From Nitrospirae bacterium CG2_30_53_67 (GTDB lineage Bacteria; CG2-30-53-67), in contig MNYV01000124.1 in assembly GCA_001873285.1 (NCBI GenBank), positions 1-15,855 of the forward strand: 15,855 bases of DNA, given 5' to 3'. The position numbers and the translations under genes are program-made. Shown here piece by piece: positions 1,371 to 12,362 of the stretch. The notes under the pieces were generated by a model that was given only the letters and a program-made list of their open reading frames with translations, was not told where the DNA came from and searched no databases. Within the stretch, counting starts at the first letter, position 1. The number at the start of each line of letters is the position of its first letter.

Positions 1371-1414
1371 CATATAAGATTTAATCATCTCCAAAAGAGT
1401 GGGTGAAAACATCA

Positions 1415-1593
1415 GGGGCCAAGGGGTCAAGGATTCCAGGGGTCAAGTGAAGTGCAAAAAACATAAGGGGCCGAGGGTCCTAGGGGTCAAGGGTTCCAGT
1501 GTTTTTCTCTGGAGATTTTGCTTGCGTTCTTGTACTCGGTTTACCGGTATCGGTATTTCACTTGACCCCTTGAACCCTGGAATCCTCGAACCC
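1415..1593. repeat. Three copies of the octamer-4+GTG element, as an inverted array between nusG and rplK
   Basis: Three 35-nt copies fill most of this gap. Copy 1 (+, 1415-1449) is GGGGCCAA, GGGGTCAA, GGATTCCA, GGGGTCAA, GTG. Copy 2 (+, 1467-1501) is GGGGCCGA, GGGTCCTA, GGGGTCAA, GGGTTCCA, GTG. Copy 3 (-, 1559-1593), read on its own strand, is GGGTTCGA, GGATTCCA, GGGTTCAA, GGGGTCAA, GTG. Copy 3 faces the other two, so the transcript can fold copy 3 onto copy 1 or copy 2; each pairing matches 27 of 35 positions. The pairing with copy 1 extends two more bases through GTGAA and TTCAC. The spacers are 17 nt between copies 1 and 2, and 57 nt between copies 2 and 3. A short plus-strand ORF across this region is not a gene. 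No convincing promoter is visible in the gap. Confidence 0.85.
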
Positions 1594-1603
1594 TTCTTAC
1601 CCA

Positions 1604-1630
1604 ATAGATGGGAGAAGAACCAGATTTAAG
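1604..1630 (+). promoter_or_regulatory. Possible L1-binding operator before rplK (tentative)
   Basis: ATAGATGGGAG at 1604-1614 resembles the ATAGGTGGGAG side of the L1 binding site in E. coli 23S rRNA helices 76-77. It lies shortly before the rplK ribosome binding site (GGAGG, 1636-1640). A weak UGG/CCA pairing (1609-1611 with 1620-1622) could form a small stem. L1 represses its own rplK-rplA transcript through such a mimic in several bacteria. The match is short and the opposite strand of the site is not convincing here. Confidence 0.2.
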
Positions 1631-1651
1631 ATTATGGAGGAATGAAAGAAG

Positions 1652-2074
1652 ATGGCCAAGGAAGTGATCGCAAAGATAAAATTGCAGGTGACGGCAGGGG
1701 CTGCGAATCCCTCTCCTCCTGTGGGGCCCGCGCTCGGGCAGCACGGTGTCAACATCATGGAGTTCTGCAAGGCCTATAATGCCCGCACCCAAAATCAGCA
1801 GGGGATGATCATCCCTGTTGAAATTACGGTCTATGCAGATCGTTCTTTTACCTTCATCACCAAGACTCCGCCTGCGGCCACGCTTCTCAAGAAGGCTGCC
1901 GGTATTGACAAGGGGTCTGGGGAGCCGCACATGAAAAAGGTGGGCAAGGTGAGCCGTGACGAGGTCAGAAAGATAGCTGAGCTCAAGATGCCGGATCTCA
2001 ATGCCAAGGATCTCGAAGGGGCCATGAAGATCATCGCCGGGACGGCGCGCAGCATGGGTATCGAGGTGGAATAG
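1652..2074 (+). CDS. rplK: 50S ribosomal protein L11 (uL11)
   Basis: This 140-residue protein is L11, which binds the GTPase-associated centre of 23S rRNA at the base of the stalk and takes part in factor-dependent GTP hydrolysis and in the stringent response. The N-terminal domain carries the proline-rich [20 protein letters not shown] stretch (about residues 16-35), where thiostrepton-type antibiotics bind. The C-terminal rRNA-binding domain ends at [11 protein letters not shown]. Length is standard. The start ATG lies 11 nt behind GGAGG (1636-1640). The stop codon overlaps the ribosome binding site of rplA 10 nt downstream, so the two are translated together. Confidence 0.98.
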
Positions 2075-2084
2075 GAGTCGACCG

Positions 2085-2792
2085 ATGAAAAAAGCAGGGA
2101 AGAAATATCAGGCAGCTCTGGAGAAAGTGAACAGGCTAAAACTCTATCCGATCAAGGAAGCCTTTGAACTGGTATCCCAGACAAAGGCTGCAAGCTATGA
2201 CGAGAGTGTGGACATCGCCGTGAGGCTGGGGGTCAATCCCAAATATTCGGACCAGATGGTGCGGGGCGCCGTGGCGCTGCCGCATGGGACCGGGAAAAGC
2301 GTACGCGTTCTGGTCTTTGCCAAAGGCGAAAAGGAAAAGGAGGCCAGGGATGCCGGAGCGGACATGGTCGGCGCTGAAGATCTGGTTGCGAAGATCAAAG
2401 GGGGATGGCTGGAGTTCGACCGGGTGATTGCCACGCCGGACATGATGGGACTGGTCGGCCCATTGGGTAAAATCCTCGGCCCACGGGGGCTGATGCCCAA
2501 TCCGAAATTGGGCACGGTGACCTTTGAACTGGCCCGGACCGTCAAGGAGATCAAGGCCGGAAAGATCGAGTTCCGTACGGAAAAAGCCGGGATTGTTCAC
2601 GCCATACTCGGCAAGTCATCCTTCGATTCTCAAAAACTTTATGAAAACAGCGCCGCTTTTTTTGAGATCCTGTTTAAACTGAAACCCGCGAGCAGCAAGG
2701 GCCAGTACTTAAGGAGCGTCGTGATCTCCACGACCATGGGGCCGGGCATCAAACTGGATCCGGTCGAGATCATGAATTTTTTTGGTCATTAA
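2085..2792 (+). CDS. rplA: 50S ribosomal protein L1 (uL1)
   Basis: This 235-residue protein is L1, which forms the mobile L1 stalk that guides deacylated tRNA out through the E site and in many bacteria represses its own operon. The family signature is plain: [20 protein letters not shown] followed by [12 protein letters not shown], about residues 115-146, in the second domain. The ending [16 protein letters not shown] and [13 protein letters not shown] is also typical. The ribosome binding site GGAG (2074-2077) overlaps the rplK stop, with 7 nt to the ATG. The TAA stop sits inside an AT-only 7-bp inverted repeat (TAAATAA 2790-2796, TTATTTA 2802-2808), a weak hairpin that I do not call as a terminator. 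Confidence 0.98.
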
Positions 2793-2830
2793 ATAAGTAT
2801 TTTATTTATTCAAACCCCTGAGATTTCGAC

Positions 2831-2951
2831 GGGCAGGATACCCGCCGGGCCTTTTGGGTCAACCTGTCAGAGACAGCAGGCGGTCTCTTTGAGATGAGAG
2901 TCTTAATCGGGGTATCCCGGCCTGCCGAGGCAGATCGTATTCCGCTTTTTT
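2831..2951 (+). ncRNA. Ribosomal protein L10 leader (autoregulatory mRNA element)
   Basis: This region in front of rplJ carries the conserved marks of the L10 leader, the mRNA site bound by the L10-L12 complex to repress rplJ-rplL. GACAGCAGG is at 2872-2880, CTTAAT at 2902-2907 and CCTGCCGAGG at 2921-2930. GCAGG (2876-2880) can pair with CCTGC (2921-2925), as expected for the family. A competing pairing is also present: GGATACCC (2836-2843) with GGGTATCC (2910-2917), and GGCAGG (2832-2837) with CCTGCC (2921-2926). The two foldings cross, so they exclude each other or form a pseudoknot. A run of six T at 2946-2951 follows, but I find no strong hairpin before it, so attenuation by termination is uncertain. 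The rest of the rplA-rplJ gap before 2831 shows nothing else. Confidence 0.8.
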
Positions 2952-2966
2952 ATGGAAAAGGTTCTG

Positions 2967-3050
2967 TCCTCTGATGGTGTGCACAGGCATCAAATTCCGG
3001 ATGAATCATTCCGGGAACCCAGCCTGTGAACAGATTAGAGGAAAGGAGGA
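2967..3050 (+). promoter_or_regulatory. Nested hairpin in the rplJ leader, able to reach the ribosome binding site
   Basis: CACAGGC (2982-2988) pairs perfectly with GCCTGTG (3022-3028). Inside it CCGGA (2997-3001) pairs with TCCGG (3010-3014), with TG and CA extending the inner stem. TCCTCT (2967-2972) can pair with AGAGGA (3037-3042) outside the hairpin, or TCCTC (2967-2971) can pair with GAGGA (3046-3050), which lies in the rplJ ribosome binding site. This layout could couple L10 binding upstream to access of ribosomes to rplJ. The pairings are seen; the regulatory role is inferred. Confidence 0.45.
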
Positions 3051-3058
3051 GTGAGCCG

Positions 3059-3577
3059 TTGAACAAACAGGAAAAGATAGAGATGGTTGCAGCTCTGCGG
3101 GAAAAATTCTCCAGGGCTAAAATGGCATTGCTGACGGATTACCGAGGCATGAGCGTCTCCGAGATGACCGGACTCCGCAGGAAACTACGGGGCGCATCCG
3201 TGGAATACGGCGTCGTCAAAAACAGCCTGGCGAGAATCGCATCAGATGGGACGACCTTGGAGCCGATCAAGGATCAATTTGAAGGTCCTACAGCAGTCGT
3301 GTTGAGTTACGAGGACCCGGTTGCGCCGGCCAAGATTCTGACCGATGCTCTCAAGGAGAATAAATACCTGGCGATCCGCACAGGCGTTTTCGAAGGAGCG
3401 GTTCTCAGCAAGGCCGAGATCGCTACCCTCGCGTCTCTCCCTTCACGGGAAGCGCTTCTCGGCATGTTCCTGCGGGTTCTTCAGAGTCCGCTGACCGGGT
3501 TGATGACGGTGATGCAGGCGCCCTTGAGAAATTTGCTGAACGCCTTGAATGCCGTAAAGGAAAAGAAGGCCGCGTAG
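3059..3577 (+). CDS. rplJ: 50S ribosomal protein L10 (uL10)
   Basis: L10 anchors the L12 dimers to 23S rRNA and so forms the base of the ribosomal stalk. The 172-residue protein shows the N-terminal rRNA-binding domain (EKIEMVAALREKFSRAK, LLTDYRGMSVSEMTGLRRKL, VVKNSLARIA). It ends in the long helix (about residues 135-168) that holds L12 dimers. The start is TTG: AAAGGAGG at 3042-3049 lies 9 nt before it, and the resulting N-terminus has normal family length. An in-frame GTG at 3026 would lie inside the leader hairpin, without a ribosome binding site. Two stop codons in a row (TAG TAA) end the gene. Repression by the L10-L12 complex through the leader upstream is expected. Confidence 0.97.
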   Translation: MNKQEKIEMVAALREKFSRAKMALLTDYRGMSVSEMTGLRRKLRGASVEYGVVKNSLARIASDGTTLEPIKDQFEGPTAVVLSYEDPVAPAKILTDALKENKYLAIRTGVFEGAVLSKAEIATLASLPSREALLGMFLRVLQSPLTGLMTVMQAPLRNLLNALNAVKEKKAA

Positions 3578-3641
3578 TAAGGCCGGGAGGAAAGAGGGCT
3601 CGTGGAGAGGTGCTGCTGTTCGTTTATGTAACAAGATCCGA

Positions 3642-3663
3642 TCCGGCGCCAAAGGCATCCGGA
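3642..3663 (+). promoter_or_regulatory. Hairpin in the rplJ-rplL intergenic region
   Basis: TCCGG (3642-3646) and GCC (3648-3650) pair with GGC (3654-3656) and CCGGA (3659-3663), with a small internal loop and an AAA end loop. It lies 9 nt before the rplL ribosome binding site. L12 is needed in several copies per L10, so a processing site or translational enhancer here would make sense, but that is inference. It lacks a T run, so it is not an intrinsic terminator. Confidence 0.35.
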
Positions 3664-3688
3664 CATCATGATGGAGGAAGAGTAGAAA

Positions 3689-4066
3689 ATGGCTATAACC
3701 AAAGAAGACGTTTTGAATTATATCGAAAAGGCGAACATGTTGGAAATCTCCGATTTGGTAAAAGAAATCGAGAACAAGTTCGGTGTTTCAGCCGCTCCTG
3801 TGGCTTATGCGGCAGGGCCGCAGGCCGCAGGGGAGGCGGCGGCCGTTGAGGAGAAGACGGCTTTCGATGTGATCCTCTCTGCTGTCGGAGAGAAGAAGAT
3901 CCAGGTGATCAAAGAGGTCAGGGCGATTACCAGTCTCGGACTCAAAGAGGCCAAGGATCTGGTCGAAGGGGCGCCCAAGACCGTGAAAGAAGGGGTCTCC
4001 AAGGAAGAAGCCGCTCAGATCAAGGAGAAACTCTCGGCGGTAGGGGCGACGGTGGAGATCAAGTAG
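3689..4066 (+). CDS. rplL: 50S ribosomal protein L7/L12 (bL12)
   Basis: This 125-residue protein is the multi-copy stalk protein that recruits EF-Tu, EF-G, IF2 and release factors and promotes their GTP hydrolysis. The N-terminal dimerisation domain spans about residues 1-33. An alanine-rich hinge follows (about 34-55). The globular C-terminal domain (about 58-125) contains [20 protein letters not shown] and [20 protein letters not shown], the surface that factors bind. All of this is standard. The start ATG follows GGAGG at 3673-3677, with 11 nt between. It follows rplJ after 111 nt and is followed by rpoB after a 74-nt gap in which I see no terminator, so read-through into rpoB is likely. 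Confidence 0.98.
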
Positions 4067-4140
4067 GTCTTCCGTTCCCGCCGGGGAAAGCAGCCTCGGC
4101 TGAAGGTTTTTCTGCGATATTGCCCAATGAGGAGTCCCAT

Positions 4141-7100
4141 ATGCATAAGGTGAGCCAGCCCGGTCTCAGGGTTCGGAAAGATTTTTCCAAGATTCGCGCC
4201 GTGATGGATATCCCGGATCTGATCGAGATCCAGAAACGTTCTTACAAGATGTTTCTGCAGGAAGGCATGGCGCCGGACAAGCGTGAAGATACAGGTCTGC
4301 AGTCGGCCTTCAACAGCGTTTTCCCCATCACGGACTTCAACGAGACACTCTCTCTTGAGTTCGTGGATTACTCCCTTGGCGAACCCAAGTATGACATCAT
4401 TGAATGCCTGCAACGCGGGGCGACCTATGCGGCGCCTCTTCGAGCCCGCATGCGTCTGATTGTCTACGACGTTCCTGAGGAGGGCAAAGGGAACAGGTCG
4501 GTCCGGGACATCAAGGAACAGGAAGTCTACCTGGGGGAGATCCCTCTCATGACGCCGAACGGGACCTTTATCGTCAACGGGACCGAGCGCGTCATCGTCA
4601 GTCAGCTCCACCGGTCACCGGGCGCCTTCTTCAGTTATGAGAAGGGGAAGACCAGTTCCGAGAAGCTCCTCTATACGGCCAGGATCATCCCGTACCGGGG
4701 TTCATGGCTCGATTTCGAGTTTGACTCCAAGGACCTGCTCTATGTCCGCATCGACCGCAGAAGAAAGCTTCTCGCGACCATCCTGCTCAGGGCGCTGGGT
4801 TTCAGCGCCCAGCAGCTGCTGAAGATCTATTACCAGACGGAAAGATTGCACGTGGATGACAAGGAGAACATCATCAAGGACGTGAATCCCGATGTTCTGA
4901 AGGGGACACGCGCCACGTCGAACATTTATGCGCCGGGCGCCCGGAAGATCATTGTCAAGGAGGGGTACAAGATCACCAAGGTCGCCCTGAAGCGCATTGT
5001 CGAATCCGGTCTGAAGGAGATGAAGGTCCAGAAAGAGGAACTGCTCGGAAGGGTCGTTCTTGATGACATTGTGGATCCGTCAACCGGCGAAGTCCTCGTG
5101 GAAGGGAACACCGAGCTGACCGAAGATATGGTGAATACCATTCTACAGAGAAAAGTCCGGGAATTTGAGATCCTTTTCATAGACAATATCCATGTCAGCT
5201 CGGCCCTCAGGGACACCCTGGCCCATGACAAGGTGGCCTCTCCCGAGGAAGCCATGATCGAGATCTACAAACGGATGCGGCCGGGAGAACCGCCTACGCT
5301 GGAGACGGCCAGGCATCTCTTTAACGACCTCTTCTTCAATCCTCGGCGCTACGATCTTTCTCCTGTGGGGCGTCTCAAGATGAACCACAAACTCGGCCTG
5401 GATATTCCCAGGGATGCCCGCACCCTGACCAAAGAGGATATCATCCGCACTGTCAAACACCTGATCGACTTGAAAAACGGGATCGGCGCCGTGGACGACA
5501 TTGATCATCTCGGGAACCGGCGGGTCCGGTCCGTGGGTGAGCTGCTGGAAAACCAGATCCGCATCGGCCTGGTCCGGATGGAACGGACCATCCGTGAGCG
5601 GATGAACCTTCAGGATGCGGAGACGGTCCTTCCCAAGACCCTGATCAACGCCAAGCCGGTTTCTGCGGCCATCAAGGAATTCTTCGGGAGCAGCCAGCTT
5701 TCACAGTTCATGGACCAGACCAATCCTCTCTCCGAGATCACGCACAAGCGGAGGCTCTCAGCCCTGGGGCCGGGCGGACTGACGCGGGAGCGGGCCGGAT
5801 TTGCCGTCCGGGACGTGCACCCGACCCATTACGGGAGGATTTGTCCGATCGAGACCCCTGAAGGTCCCAATATCGGACTGATCACCTCTCTTTCCACCTA
5901 TGCCCGTGTCAATGAATACGGTTTTATTGAAGCCCCCTATTCAAAGGCAGAGAACGGATGGATTACCGACCAGGTGAAATTCCTCAACGCGCTGGAAGGG
6001 GAACAGTATGTCATCGCTCAGGCCAATACGCCGCTCGATGCCAAGGGAAAGATCTCCGTCAGCCTGGTCTCTGCGAGGAAACAGGGGGATTTTATCATGG
6101 TCCCGCCGGAACAGGTGGACTATATGGATGTCTCTCCGAAACAGATGGTGAGCGTGGCCACAGCGCTGATTCCTTTCCTTGAGCATGACGATGCCAACCG
6201 GGCCCTCATGGGTTCCAATATGCAGCGTCAGGCTGTTCCGCTTCTCAAGACCGAGGCCCCGATCGTGGGGACCGGTATGGAATCCGTGGTGGCCAGGGAC
6301 TCAGGCGTGGTTTCGATCGCCCGCAGACCCGGGGTGGTGGACTATGTGGACGCCCAGAAGATCGTGATCAAGGCGGACAAGGAGAAGCAGGGGAGATCCT
6401 CGACCGGATCGCGCCTCGACATCTATAATCTTCTTAAGTATCAGCGGTCCAATCAAAATACTTGCATCAACCAGAAGCCCATCGTGAAAAAAGGCGACCA
6501 CGTGGTTCAGGGACAGATCATTGCAGACGGTCCCGCGACGGACCAGGGGGAACTGGCGCTGGGACAGAACGTTCTGGTGGCCTTCATGCCGTGGCGGGGG
6601 TTTAATTATGAAGACGCCATCCTGATCAGCGAGAAGCTCGCCCGGGAGGACCGATACACCTCGATTCACATCGAGGAGTTCATGATGGAGGCGAGGGACA
6701 CGAAACTCGGGCAGGAGGATATCACCCGGGACATTCCGAACGTCAGTGAGGAAGGACTCCGGGATCTGGACGAAAGCGGCATTGTCCGAATCGGGGCCGA
6801 GGTCAAACACGGCGACATCCTGGTCGGGAAGGTCACCCCCAAGGGTGAGACGCAACTGACCCCGGAAGAAAAACTGCTCCGGGCCATTTTTGGAGAGAAG
6901 GCCGGAGACGTACGGGACGCCTCGCTCCGGGTTCCTCCAGGAATCGAGGGGACGGTGGTGGATGTCAGGGTTTTTGTGCGCCGAGGAGTGGACAAGGATG
7001 AACGGACCTTGAGCATGGAAGATGAGGATATCCTGAAGATCCAGAAGGACTATGAAGAAGAGATGCGGATCATTCAGGAGGAGTATCTTTCCAAGAAGAG

Positions 7101-8097
7101 GAGCCTGCTGGTCGGATACAAGGTCGTTGAATCCGTCCGTCACCCGGAGAAGAAGAAAGTCCTTCTTAAAAAAGGCGGCGTTTTGTCCCCGGAGATCATC
7201 GAAGAAATCCCGCTGGATTTATTCGAGTCCATTGAAGTGGAAACCGATGACAGCCTTAAGGAAAAGCGGGAGGCGCTGGAAGACCGGCATCAGGAGAACC
7301 TGGCGGATATCCAGACCTTCTACGATGAGAAGATCAACCGGGTACGCAAGGGCGACGAGCTCCCTCCGGGAGTCATCAAGATGGTCAAGGTCTACGTGGC
7401 CATGAAGCGCAGGCTTTCCGTGGGCGATAAAATGGCGGGGCGCCACGGGAACAAGGGCGTCGTGTCGAAGATCCTTCCCATAGAGGACATGCCCTATCTT
7501 CCGGATGGAAGGTCAGTGGACATCGTTCTTAATCCCCTCGGAGTCCCATCCCGAATGAACATCGGCCAGATCCTGGAGACCCATTTGGGCTGGGCGGCGA
7601 AGGCCTTGGGGCTGTACATTGCCACGCCGGTATTTGACGGGGCCACGGAGAAAGAAATCAAAGAGATGCTGAAAAAAGCCGGCCTTCCGACCCGGGGACA
7701 GTCGGTCCTCTATGACGGGAAAACCGGCGAGCCCTTCCATCAGGATGTGACGGTGGGCTGCATGTATATCATGAAGCTCCATCATTTGGTCGACGACAAA
7801 CTGCATGCGAGATCCATCGGGCCCTATTCTCTGGTCACCCAGCAGCCTCTCGGCGGCAAGGCCCAATTCGGAGGACAGCGTCTGGGCGAGATGGAGGTAT
7901 GGGCCTTGGAGGCCTACGGGGCGGCCCATACCCTTCAGGAGTTCCTGACTGTCAAATCAGACGATGTGTCGGGACGCACCCGGATTTACGAGTCGATCGT
8001 AAAAGGGCAGAATATTCTGGAGTGCGGACTGCCCGAATCCTTCAACGTTCTGGTCAAAGAACTTCAGAGCCTTTGTCTGGATGTGGAATTGATATAG
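4141..8097 (+). CDS. rpoB: DNA-directed RNA polymerase subunit beta
   Basis: This 1318-residue protein is the beta subunit of the polymerase core. The rifampicin pocket is complete and of sensitive type: [20 protein letters not shown], then [19 protein letters not shown], with D525, H535 and S540 matching E. coli D516, H526 and S531. The active-site segment [16 protein letters not shown] starts at residue 1095, and the C-terminus has the [20 protein letters not shown] and beta-clamp motifs. A charged, coiled-coil-like insert (about residues 960-1075, rich in E, K and R) precedes the active-site segment, as in Proteobacteria and relatives; Firmicutes lack it. The start is ATG at 4141 with GAGGAG (4129-4134) 6 nt away. 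An in-frame TTG at 4120 would put that site inside the gene and is rejected. It is co-transcribed with rpoC across a repeat-filled gap. Confidence 0.98.
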
Positions 8098-8104
8098 ATA
8101 AATA

Positions 8105-8203
8105 GGGTTCAAGGGGTCGAGGGGTCAAGGATTCAAGTGAGAAGAAGAGAAAATGGTTGGGAAAAGAACACTTGAACCCTGGGACCCTTGGACCCTTGAA
8201 CCC
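8105..8203. repeat. Inverted pair of octamer-4+GTG elements between rpoB and rpoC
   Basis: Copy 4 (+, 8105-8139) is GGGTTCAA, GGGGTCGA, GGGGTCAA, GGATTCAA, GTG. Copy 5 (-, 8169-8203), read on its own strand, is GGGTTCAA, GGGTCCAA, GGGTCCCA, GGGTTCAA, GTG. They match at 28 of 35 positions and face each other across a 29-nt loop (8140-8168), with one more A-T pair outside (8104 and 8204). In mRNA this would be a long hairpin with closed ends and a few mismatches in the middle. The element begins 7 nt after the rpoB stop and ends 9 nt before the rpoC ribosome binding site, so it makes up nearly the whole gap. No flanking target-site duplication is visible. Confidence 0.85.
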
Positions 8204-8225: not shown

Positions 8226-11200
8226 TTGAAAGACTTATACAGCTTGTTTGATAAACCCAAGAGCGCCGTGAGTTTTGACAAGATCCGCATCGGGATCGCT
8301 TCGGCGGAGAAGATCCGTTCCTGGTCTCATGGGGAAGTGAAAAAGCCGGAGACCATCAACTACCGGACCTTCAAGCCGGAGCGGGACGGGCTTTTCTGCG
8401 CCAAGATTTTTGGTCCCACCAAGGATTGGGAGTGTACCTGCGGAAAGTACAAACGGATGAAGCACCGGGGCGTGATCTGCGACAAGTGCGGTGTGGAGGT
8501 CATCCAGTCCAAGGTGCGGCGAGAGCGCCTCGGCCATATCGAGCTGGCCTGCCCGGTCTCTCATGTCTGGTTCTTCAAGGCCCTTCCCAGCCGGATCGGC
8601 AGCCTGCTGGATCTGACGCTGAAAGAGTTGGAGAAGGTCCTTTATTTTGAATCCTATATCGTGATCGACGGAGGGACGTCCCCCCTGAAACCTTTGACCA
8701 TTTTAAGTGAAGAGCAGTACCGCAAGGCCCGAGAGGACTATGGGGATGCCTTTAAAGCGGGGATCGGGGCCGAGGCCATCAAAAGCGTTCTTTCCGCCCT
8801 GGATCTGGACAAGCTCTCCGAGGAACTCCGGGAAGGCGGCAGGACGGTCAAGTCCAAGGCCCTCAAGGCCAAGATGATTAAACGGCTGAGAGTGGTGGAG
8901 GCCTTCCGGGGTTCCGGAAATCGTCCGGAATGGATGATCCTGGACGTGATCCCCGTCATCCCGCCGGAACTCCGCCCCCTGGTCCCCCTTGAAGGAGGAC
9001 GTTTTGCCACGTCGGACCTGAATGATCTCTACCGGCGCGTGATCAACCGGAACAACCGGCTCCGCAGACTGATCGAGCTCAAGGCGCCTGATGTGATCAT
9101 CCGAAACGAAAAAAGGATGCTTCAGGAGGCCGTTGACGCCCTGTTTGACAACGGCCGGCGCGGGCGGATCATCCGCGGCCCGAACAAACGCCCGCTCAAA
9201 TCCCTAAGCGACATGCTCAAAGGGAAACAGGGGCGTTTCCGTCAGAATCTCCTGGGAAAAAGGGTGGACTATTCCGGGCGTTCCGTAATCGTCGTGGGGC
9301 CGGAATTGAAGCTGAACCAGTGCGGCATCCCTAAGAAGATGGCGCTTGAGCTCTTCAAGCCGTTCATCTTCAATAAACTCGAAGAGAAAGGGTACGTGAC
9401 GACCATCAAGAGCGCCAAGAAGATGGTGGAGAAGATGAAAGAGGAGGTTTGGGATGCCCTGGACGAGGTGATTCAGGAGCATCCGGTTCTCCTGAACCGC
9501 GCCCCGACCCTGCACCGCCTCGGGATCCAGGCCTTTGACCCGATCCTTGTGGAAGGGAAGGCCATCAGGCTTCACCCCCTGGTCTGCGCGGCCTTCAATG
9601 CGGACTTCGATGGAGACCAGATGGCGGTGCACATTCCCCTTTCGGTGGAGGCTCAGACCGAGGCACGGGTCCTCATGCTTTCGATCAACAACATCCTCTC
9701 TCCGGCCAACGGCCGGCCCATTACCATCCCCAGCCAGGACATGGTTCTCGGATGCTACTACATGACCATTGAGGCCCCTGGCGCCAAAGGCGAGGGGATG
9801 CGTTTTTCCAGCATCAATGAGGTCCGGATGGCCTATGATGCGGGGGTGGCCAGCCTCCATGCCAAGGTCTTTGTGAGGATAAACGGCAAGATCGTTGAAA
9901 CCACGATCGGCCGCGCCCTGATCGGCGATATCCTGCCCCCGGGCATTCCGTTTTCAAGCGTGAATCAGCTTCTCAAGAAGAAGACCATCAGTGCGATCAT
10001 CGATGAGGCCTACCGTAGGGTCGGACCCTCGGAGACCGTTATCCTTCTTGACCACCTCAAGGATTTGGGGTTTGAGTTCGCCACACTGTCCGGCGTATCG
10101 GTCTGTCTTGACGACATGCATATTCCGTCCAACAAGCCGAAGATCCTGGACAAGGCCATGAAGGACGTGGATGAAATCTCCAGGCAGTATGCCGACGGGC
10201 TGATCACGGACGGTGAGCGGTACAACAAGGTGATCGATATCTGGGCCCAGGTCACGGATGCCGTTTCCGCCGAAATGATGAAGGAGCTGGGGAGCGAGGA
10301 ACAGGGGAGGGAAAAAAGGGGACGGGAATTCAACCCGATCTTTATGATGGCGGACTCAGGCGCCAGAGGTTCGGCCCAGCAGATCCGGCAGCTTGCCGGC
10401 ATGAGAGGGCTGATGGCCAAGCCGTCCGGAGAGATCATCGAGACCCCGATCACCTCCAATTTCCGTGAAGGACTGACCGTGCTGCAGTACTTCATCTCCA
10501 CGCACGGCGCGCGTAAGGGTCTGGCGGACACGGCCTTGAAGACGGCCAATTCAGGATACCTGACCCGCCGCCTGGTGGATGTGGCTCAGGACAGTATCAT
10601 CCTGGAAAACAACTGCGGGACCCTGGACGGGATCGAGGTCTCCTCCCTGGTGGAGGGGGGCGAGATCATCGAGCCCCTCTATGACCGGATTTTGGGCCGC
10701 TCGGCCGCTGAGGATATTATGGATCCGGACGGCAAGAGCGTCATCGTCAAGGCCGGCGAAGATATAGACGAAAAGACCGCATCCATGATCGTGGATTCGG
10801 GTATCTATACTGTCAAGATCCGTTCCCCATTGACGTGCGAAACCCAGCGAGGGGTCTGCGCCAAGTGTTACGGGCGGGATCTCTCGAGGGGGACCCTGAT
10901 TGATATCGGTGAGGCGGCCGGTGTGATCGCGGCGCAATCCATCGGAGAGCCGGGGACCCAGCTCACCATGAGAACCTTCCATATCGGCGGAACCGCCAGC
11001 CAGGTCGCTGAGCAGACCACGCTCGAAGCCAAAAACAACGGGATCGTGGCCTACGAAAACATCAAGACCGTCATCAACAAAGACGACAAGATCGTGGTCA
11101 TGAACAGAAACGGCCAGCTCCTGATCCTGGACAAAAAAGGAAGGGAGAAGGAGCGGTACAGCGTGGTTTACGGGGCCGCACTCAAGGTCAAGGAAAAACA

Positions 11201-12362
11201 GCCGGTCAATGCAGGAGAGAGTCTGGTGGAATGGGATCCCTATACCGCATCCATCCTGACCGAAGTCGGAGGGAAGGTGGCCTTCGGCGACATTATAGAA
11301 GGCATTTCCATGAGGGAGGAGGTCGATGAGATCACCGGACTCTCGAGAAGGGTGATCATGGATTACTCCCATACGGACCTCAGGCCCAGGCTCTCGATCA
11401 AGGGCGCGGACGGGAAGACCTTGAAGCTTCCCGGCGGGAGGGGCGATGCCCGGTACATCCTTCCGGCAGGGGCCAATATCCATGTTGAGAAGGGCGCGGA
11501 GGTCTATCCTGGGGACGTGCTGGTCAAGATTCCGAGGGAGACCACCAAGACCAAGGACATTACCGGAGGGCTCCCCCGTGTGGCGGAACTTTTCGAGGCC
11601 AGGAAGCCCAAGGAGCAGGCCGTGATCAGCGAGGTGGATGGTGTGGTCAAGGATGGAGGGTTCCTGCGCGGCGCCCGGAGGATTATCGTCGTTACGGAGA
11701 ACGGAGAGGAACACGAATACAACATCCCGAGAGGCAAGCACGTCAACGTCCATGAAGGAGATTTCGTGAAGGCCGGCGAACCCTTGATGGACGGGTCGGC
11801 CAACCCGCACGACATCCTGAGGATCCTGGGGCCGAAGGAACTTCAGAAATACTTTGTGGACGAGATCCAGAAGGTCTATCGCCTCCAGGGCGTCTCCATC
11901 CACGACAAGCATATTGAGATCATCGTCCGGCAGATGCTGAAAAAGGTCGTCATCGAAGAGAGCGGGGACACGGACTTTCTGATTGGAGAGCAGGTGGATA
12001 AGGTTCTCTTCTCCAGAAAGAACGCGGAGATGGTCAAGCAGAAGAAACAGCCGGCCATGGGGAAACCCCTGCTTCTGGGGATCACCAAGGCGTCCCTGAA
12101 CACGGACAGTTTCATCTCGGCAGCGTCTTTCCAGGAGACCACCCGGGCATTGACCGAGGCGTCGATCAGCGGGAAGGTGGATGATCTGGTCGGTCTGAAA
12201 GAGAATGTGATCATGGGGAGGCTGATCCCGGCCGGGACGGGGATCCGCCAGTATCTCGATACCGTAGTCAAGCTGGATGAACCTGAGGAGACTGAGGAGC
12301 CCGTGAAGGAAGAGGCCCCGGGCGGTGAGGTTGCAGGGAGCCTTGAAGAGGCCGCCAAGTAG
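8226..12362 (+). CDS. rpoC: DNA-directed RNA polymerase subunit beta'
   Basis: This 1378-residue protein is the catalytic beta' subunit. Zinc site 1 is C70, C72, C85 and C88, the same numbering as E. coli. The magnesium-binding NADFDGD motif is at residues 458-464 (D460, D462, D464). Zinc site 2 is C797, C871, C878 and C881. The bridge helix spans about 750-787 ([20 protein letters not shown]). The trigger loop starts at 907 ([16 protein letters not shown]) and is split by an insert of about 180 residues (about 925-1105) like the proteobacterial SI3 domain. The tail (about 1350-1378) is acidic and probably disordered. The start is TTG at 8226, with GGAGGG (8213-8218) 7 nt upstream; it gives the expected [11 protein letters not shown]. 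An in-frame upstream extension to 8157 merely translates the octamer repeat and is rejected. Confidence 0.98.

Follow-up and report, generated by a model that had tools for sequence, protein, structure and literature searches.

Inverted octamer arrays in Nitrospirae bacterium CG2_30_53_67 are probably the ends of IVP-associated mobile elements

Results

Octamer arrays in two operon spacers

The window analysed here is the 15.9-kb contig MNYV01000124.1 (C124; 15,855 nt) of Nitrospirae bacterium CG2_30_53_67, whose genome (G000) comprises 2.36 Mb in 183 contigs. We take its gene order to be tuf-rpmG-tRNA-secE-nusG-[copies 1-3]-rplK-rplA-rplJ-rplL-rpoB-[copies 4-5]-rpoC-rpsL-rpsG-fusA, with genes named by their proteins and by the secE-nusG-rplK type of gene order, where the bracketed copies are five 35-nt repeats oriented +, +, - (copies 1-3) and +, - (copies 4-5). 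Each copy consists of four contiguous GGRKYCNA octamers and a closing GTG, as a first-pass annotation had described; all 20 units are free of mismatches, and no sixth array lies in the window. That annotation had missed the inward-facing pairing of the arrays, about 30 nt of conserved sequence beyond the arrays of cluster 1 (copies 1-3), and the target-site duplication (TSD) that encloses this cluster. We argue below that the repeats are probably the ends of non-autonomous mobile elements associated with the S23p/23S_rRNA_IVP protein family (PF05635; hereafter IVP).

Copies 1-3 correspond to arrays A, B and C within a single composite transposon (element 1, window 1385-1621) that resembles a miniature inverted-repeat transposable element (MITE), with the following features.

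1377..1384, no strand: left copy of the 8-bp TSD AGATTTAA, placed from the sequence and the family-wide TSD statistics
1385..1414, + strand: left terminal inverted repeat (TIR), family consensus GGATCATCTCCAAAAGAGTGGGTGAAAACATCA
1415..1449, + strand: array A, GGGGCCAA GGGGTCAA GGATTCCA GGGGTCAA GTG
1450..1466, + strand: spacer AAGTGCAAAAAACATAA, whose first bases match the IVP start of other copies (GTGAA-GTG CTC AAA ...)
1467..1501, + strand: array B, GGGGCCGA GGGTCCTA GGGGTCAA GGGTTCCA GTG
1502..1558, + strand: core spacer TTTTTCTCTGGAGATTTTGCTTGCGTT...CGGTATTT, common to many copies
1559..1593, - strand: array C (inverted), GGGTTCGA GGATTCCA GGGTTCAA GGGGTCAA GTG
1594..1621, - strand: right TIR, family consensus (reverse complement) GGTTCTTCTCCCATTTAGTGGGTAAAAA
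1622..1629, no strand: right copy of the TSD AGATTTAA
768..1370, + strand: nusG reading frame, upstream neighbour of element 1
1652..2074, + strand: rplK (L11), downstream neighbour of element 1

Most arrays of the genome belong to this composite, which is bounded by TIRs (GGATCATCTCC.../GGTTCTTCTCC...). From its left end, GGATCATCTCCAAAAGAGTGGGTGAAAACATCA, it runs through array A, 17 nt of spacer, array B and a core spacer to the inverted array C, and it closes with the right end, TTTTTACCCACTAAATGGGAGAAGAACC, which repeats the left end imperfectly in inverted orientation. Internal modules come and go among copies, including an insert beginning GGGTTACGCTTCGCGTG..., a CCCCGTTAGAG...CTCTAACGGGG hairpin and an IVP-derived stretch. 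The hairpin was seen beside the CAC/GTG of some arrays (L080 4178-4450, L106 2560-2620, L116 6072-6431), and a module of about 75 nt, GGGTTACGCTTCGCGTGTCCCGC...GCCGTCTGCGACGGC...AAGGCATCTTGGG, lies in octamer register inside arrays of several genera (for example L083 7291-7620, L189 541-840 and L202 483-726).

Four octamers and a closing GTG are modal, not absolute

Scanning the complete genome revealed 318 matches (168+150) to two octamers followed by GTG and 555 (282+273) to three octamers, while the reversed pattern, used as control, gave 0 in both cases; octamer abundance is therefore far beyond chance. For a closer view we read 1.14 Mb, about half of the genome, as 101 stretches that included the window and of which roughly half had been picked for holding pattern matches; 450 kb, again including the window, had been picked blind to them. 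The larger sample contained 261 arrays, of which 221 ended in GTG; among these, 170 had four units, 41 had two or three and 10 had 5-14. The blind-picked stretches held 71 arrays, 59 of them GTG-ended and 44 of those 59 with four units, from which we roughly estimate 180 clusters per genome. Four units are thus strongly preferred but not absolute, and slippage-like expansions occur. Accordingly, the earlier claim of a fixed unit number that slippage would not give stands as a strong mode and falls as a rule, and neither of the two outcomes named as refuting it appeared: the number of units is not free to vary, and GTG ends are far more common than chance.

Octamer positions 1, 2, 6 and 8 are nearly fixed, and 3, 4, 5 and 7 are variable. 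Arrays occur mostly as inward-facing inverted pairs (><, >>< or ><<) with recurring spacings of 20, 24, 42, 63, 146 and 165 and shared flanks, and 107 of 117 clusters are intergenic, lying between protein open reading frames (ORFs) or at contig ends, in a sample with an ORF coverage of 0.825. Known RNA families gave no match at the repeats, the sole match in the window being a tRNA, and in the literature searched, which was incompletely covered, we found neither the octamer strings nor a tie between IVP and such repeats.

Target-site duplications indicate transposition

To judge mobility, the 8-mers flanking 42 two-ended elements were compared. They were identical at at least 6 of 8 positions in 22/42 and at at least 7 of 8 in 16/42, versus 7.5% and 1.6%, respectively, for cross-paired flanks of different elements, and the observed count was reached in 0 of 2000 permutations. 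The target sites are 85% AT. Together these statistics indicate 8-bp TSDs in AT-rich sites. The window copy itself scored only 2/8 in this fixed-offset test because its left terminus, which reads TC for RGATC before ATCTCC, has seemingly lost about 3 nt. Copying of the repeat as one module, as the first-pass annotation had proposed, is therefore apt for cluster 1, which is one TIR-bounded transposon copy with 8-bp TSDs, but the five copies are not independent modules. The copies that we read span about 150-430 bp and have no transposase ORF inside; the TSDs lead us to infer that a DDE-type enzyme spread them.

Two perfect A..A palindromes, on contigs C47 and C154, were rejected as elements. 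At both (L070, G000:C47 6525-7232; L127, G000:C154 6947-7625) the contig end folds back, so that what follows the element repeats, in reverse complement, what precedes it; this is an assembly artefact caused by the repeats.

IVP genes or their remnants lie between inverted arms in three lineages

The S23p/IVP family is common in bacteria and is chiefly known from parasites within 23S rRNA genes; to our knowledge it has no established function. The genome contains 12 matches to PF05635, nine of which, all partial, are either enclosed by arms or located where a contig ends within an element. An IVP protein can be read from the sequence between arrays A and C in some copies, while the window copies have no such ORF. 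Where present, the frame opens 2 nt past the closing GTG (GTG-AA-GTG CTC AAA CAC TAC AAG GAG TTA AAG) and terminates inside the array on the other side (...ENK H L T P stop). An intact ORF of 118 aa was found in the Nitrospirae metagenome-assembled genome (MAG) Glo_13 (G062), again between inverted arms and with its stop codon in an array. A third genome, from another family and outside the window's phylum set (G197), has an N-terminal IVP remnant, MLKNYKELKVWQKSYQICLDIYRITKDFPKEEKYG, between arms, and its junction, GTG-AA-ATG CTG AAG, keeps the register seen in the window's genome. IVP thus lies between inverted arms in three lineages (G062, G197 and G000), two of which (G197 and G000) agree in start register, and in a fourth, 4.4-Mb genome (G036) the sole detected array lies close to a truncated IVP gene. 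Judged from these junctions, the closing GTG is part of a conserved array/ORF junction. Solved structures of homologues are 2GSC and 2RLD, and by homology the IVP protein is predicted to be a pentameric four-helix bundle.

In a survey of 386 genomes, three octamers plus GTG occurred in 11: the window's own genome (252 matches), a genus mate (G001; 54), three further family members, and six unrelated genomes that each had 1-7 matches. The G001 matches are identical to those of the groundwater MAG Hainich-H32-bin143-1, whose genus the window's organism shares. In Glo_13, four units were counted in 26 of 30 arrays ending in GTG. Beyond the genus and one Deltaproteobacteria MAG, CG_2015-17_54_20 (G061), the pairs have no MITE ends, and their loops are unrelated.

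Element 2 and predicted RNA stems

Copies 4-5 form element 2 (8105-8203), a simple inverted pair without MITE ends. It takes up the rpoB-rpoC spacer, and its end lies about 9 nt upstream of the Shine-Dalgarno-like GGAGG of rpoC.

8105..8139, + strand: arm 1 of the simple element, GGGTTCAA GGGGTCGA GGGGTCAA GGATTCAA GTG
8140..8168, + strand: loop of the simple element, unlike the other copies read
8169..8203, - strand: arm 2 of the simple element, GGGTTCAA GGGTCCAA GGGTCCCA GGGTTCAA GTG
4120..8097, + strand: rpoB, upstream neighbour of element 2
8226..12362, + strand: rpoC, downstream neighbour of element 2, probably starting with the TTG at 8226 that follows GGAGG

Folding predictions gave -54 kcal/mol (z = -6.2) for the sense RNA of element 2, with a nearly equal value for the antisense, and -92 kcal/mol (z = -3.9) for element 1, so the predicted stems are far more stable than those of shuffled sequences. 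Loop length and arm identity were weakly linked. An apparent avoidance of arm-arm identity vanished in this genome once arms were matched by end type, and we therefore make no such claim. In the simple elements of Glo_13 (L209-L228), arm identity at the variable octamer positions was 0.44 versus 0.56 for random pairs (8 pairs), which may reflect two end types.

Discussion

Taken together, our analysis makes it likely that the repeats are the ends of IVP-associated non-autonomous mobile elements, which were amplified here within a MITE and whose RNA stem may ease insertion into operons. The ancestral form would have been a pair of inverted ends, each A-(GGRKYCNA)4-GTGAA, enclosing a gene for a four-helix-bundle IVP protein, with a reading frame that starts 2 nt past the closing GTG and stops in the opposite array; since then the gene would have been lost, wholly or partly, from most copies, leaving the two arms. 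In the genus of the window's organism, such a pair may have been captured inside a MITE with TIRs of about 28 bp, which a trans-acting DDE-type transposase would then have carried into AT-rich sites between genes, well over a hundred in number, duplicating 8 bp at each. Element 1 would be one of these copies, whereas element 2 is a simple pair lacking the outer repeats. The arms are predicted to pair in RNA as a long imperfect stem, like the intervening sequences (IVSs) of 23S rRNA, and this stem may make insertion within an operon tolerable, probably as a hairpin processed by RNase III or otherwise. Retention of four units and the closing GTG is best explained partly by module copying and partly by the ORF junction. 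The MITE form shows the ribosomal-protein and RNA-polymerase operons of one bacterium loaded with hairpin-forming insertions, while IVP between countable end arrays in at least three lineages provides a free-standing mobile setting for tests of its role.

Several observations weigh against this interpretation. No arrays flank the other IVP genes in the remaining members of the phylum or at the other loci read in G036, G047, G061 and G062; viral contigs contain no array followed by the IVP ORF start, and their five IVP relatives are without arrays; and most Glo_13 loops bear no trace of IVP, which could be a passenger. The tie therefore holds for a subset of IVP genes: IVP is the associated gene of this element family, to which not every IVP gene belongs. 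Arm complementarity within an element is no higher than between type-matched arms of different elements, with no covariation beyond these controls, so selection for pairing is not supported. For simple pairs of the element 2 type we detected no TSD (n=10), and about half of the genome, as read, showed neither a transposase inside a TIR pair nor an insertion sequence (IS) with these ends. ISL3 (PF01610) and IS1595 (PF12762), guessed as sources from the GG ends and the 8-bp TSD, have no homologue in the genome.

Clear TIRs and TSDs, slippage-like arrays of 5-14 units and the many internal inserts of a mosaic element would all suit an ordinary MITE, mobilised by a lost or unseen IS transposase, in which the octamers are slippage-inflated passenger repeats and the IVP gene an accidental acquisition. 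We regard this as improbable, as other genera and phyla have inverted pairs of four octamers plus GTG that lack those TIRs, and three lineages have IVP between the arms, two sharing the start register. A similarly low probability attaches to the idea that the arrays are fixed-length sets of four sites at 8-nt spacing, bound by a host DNA- or RNA-binding protein and selected locus by locus, with mobility secondary. The near-fixed positions 1, 2, 6 and 8 beside variable positions 3, 4, 5 and 7 agree with it, as do four units plus GTG kept in several phyla with unrelated loops; yet partner arms look decayed at the single-array loci of Glo_13, intact arms were favoured by our detection, and most of the surveyed genomes lack the pattern (match in 11/386). 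The selection on layout that the first-pass annotation suggested is thus plausible in view of the recurrence across phyla but stays unproven, given this detection bias and the several decayed partner arms.

Far less probable than either is a repetitive extragenic palindrome (REP) or bacterial interspersed mosaic element (BIME) moved by a REP-associated tyrosine transposase (RAYT; Y1), a gene that the first-pass annotation had suggested looking for. The genome does encode a full-length Y1_Tnp ORF (326 aa; L075 15250-16230, - strand) and two contig-end fragments, but no array lies at the ends of this RAYT-like gene, the nearest cluster being about 1 kb away past other genes, and single arrays are non-palindromic and carry neither a GTAG nor a CGTC tag. 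Y1/HUH enzymes leave no TSD, so the 8-bp duplications refute a RAYT for the TIR-bounded form and exclude it as the main explanation.

Returning to IVP-associated mobile ends, a stronger version, which we think rather doubtful, would make the octamer arms and IVP one functional system in which the protein binds the arms, in DNA or in RNA, and the element requires it to be maintained or to move. If true, such elements would form a new class of very small mobile DNA that might be ancestral to the rRNA IVSs or a sister group of them. That a recombinase, or IVP itself, binds the arrays is a testable idea.

Comparison with known systems

Like REP/BIME sequences with RAYTs, the elements are intergenic, form inverted pairs and number in the hundreds; unlike those 20-40 bp palindromes, they have TSDs, a 35-nt non-palindromic unit and no adjacent RAYT, and they lack GTAG and CGTC, the tags given for REP/RAYT systems in PMC3733652. 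With the cyanobacterial short tandemly repeated repetitive (STRR) heptamers they share short degenerate tandem units between genes, but here the unit is 8 nt, the modal count is four and the layout is an inverted pair inside a transposon. Bacterial MITEs are likewise short, non-coding, high-copy elements with TIRs, TSDs and AT-rich intergenic targets, and differ in lacking internal octamer-array arms and IVP remnants. In the 23S rRNA IVS of Coxiella burnetii, a terminal stem of 28 bp closes a loop that contains an S23p ORF, and RNase III excises the sequence (PMC4990558). Such IVSs are, like the elements described here, selfish, with stem-forming terminal inverted repeats and an S23p ORF (PF05635) in the loop (PMC4990558), whereas ours are intergenic and high-copy, end in four degenerate octamers plus GTG and have mostly lost the ORF. 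As the window elements sit between nusG and rplK and between rpoB and rpoC rather than in a 23S rRNA gene, we do not class them as 23S IVSs, despite the same architecture.

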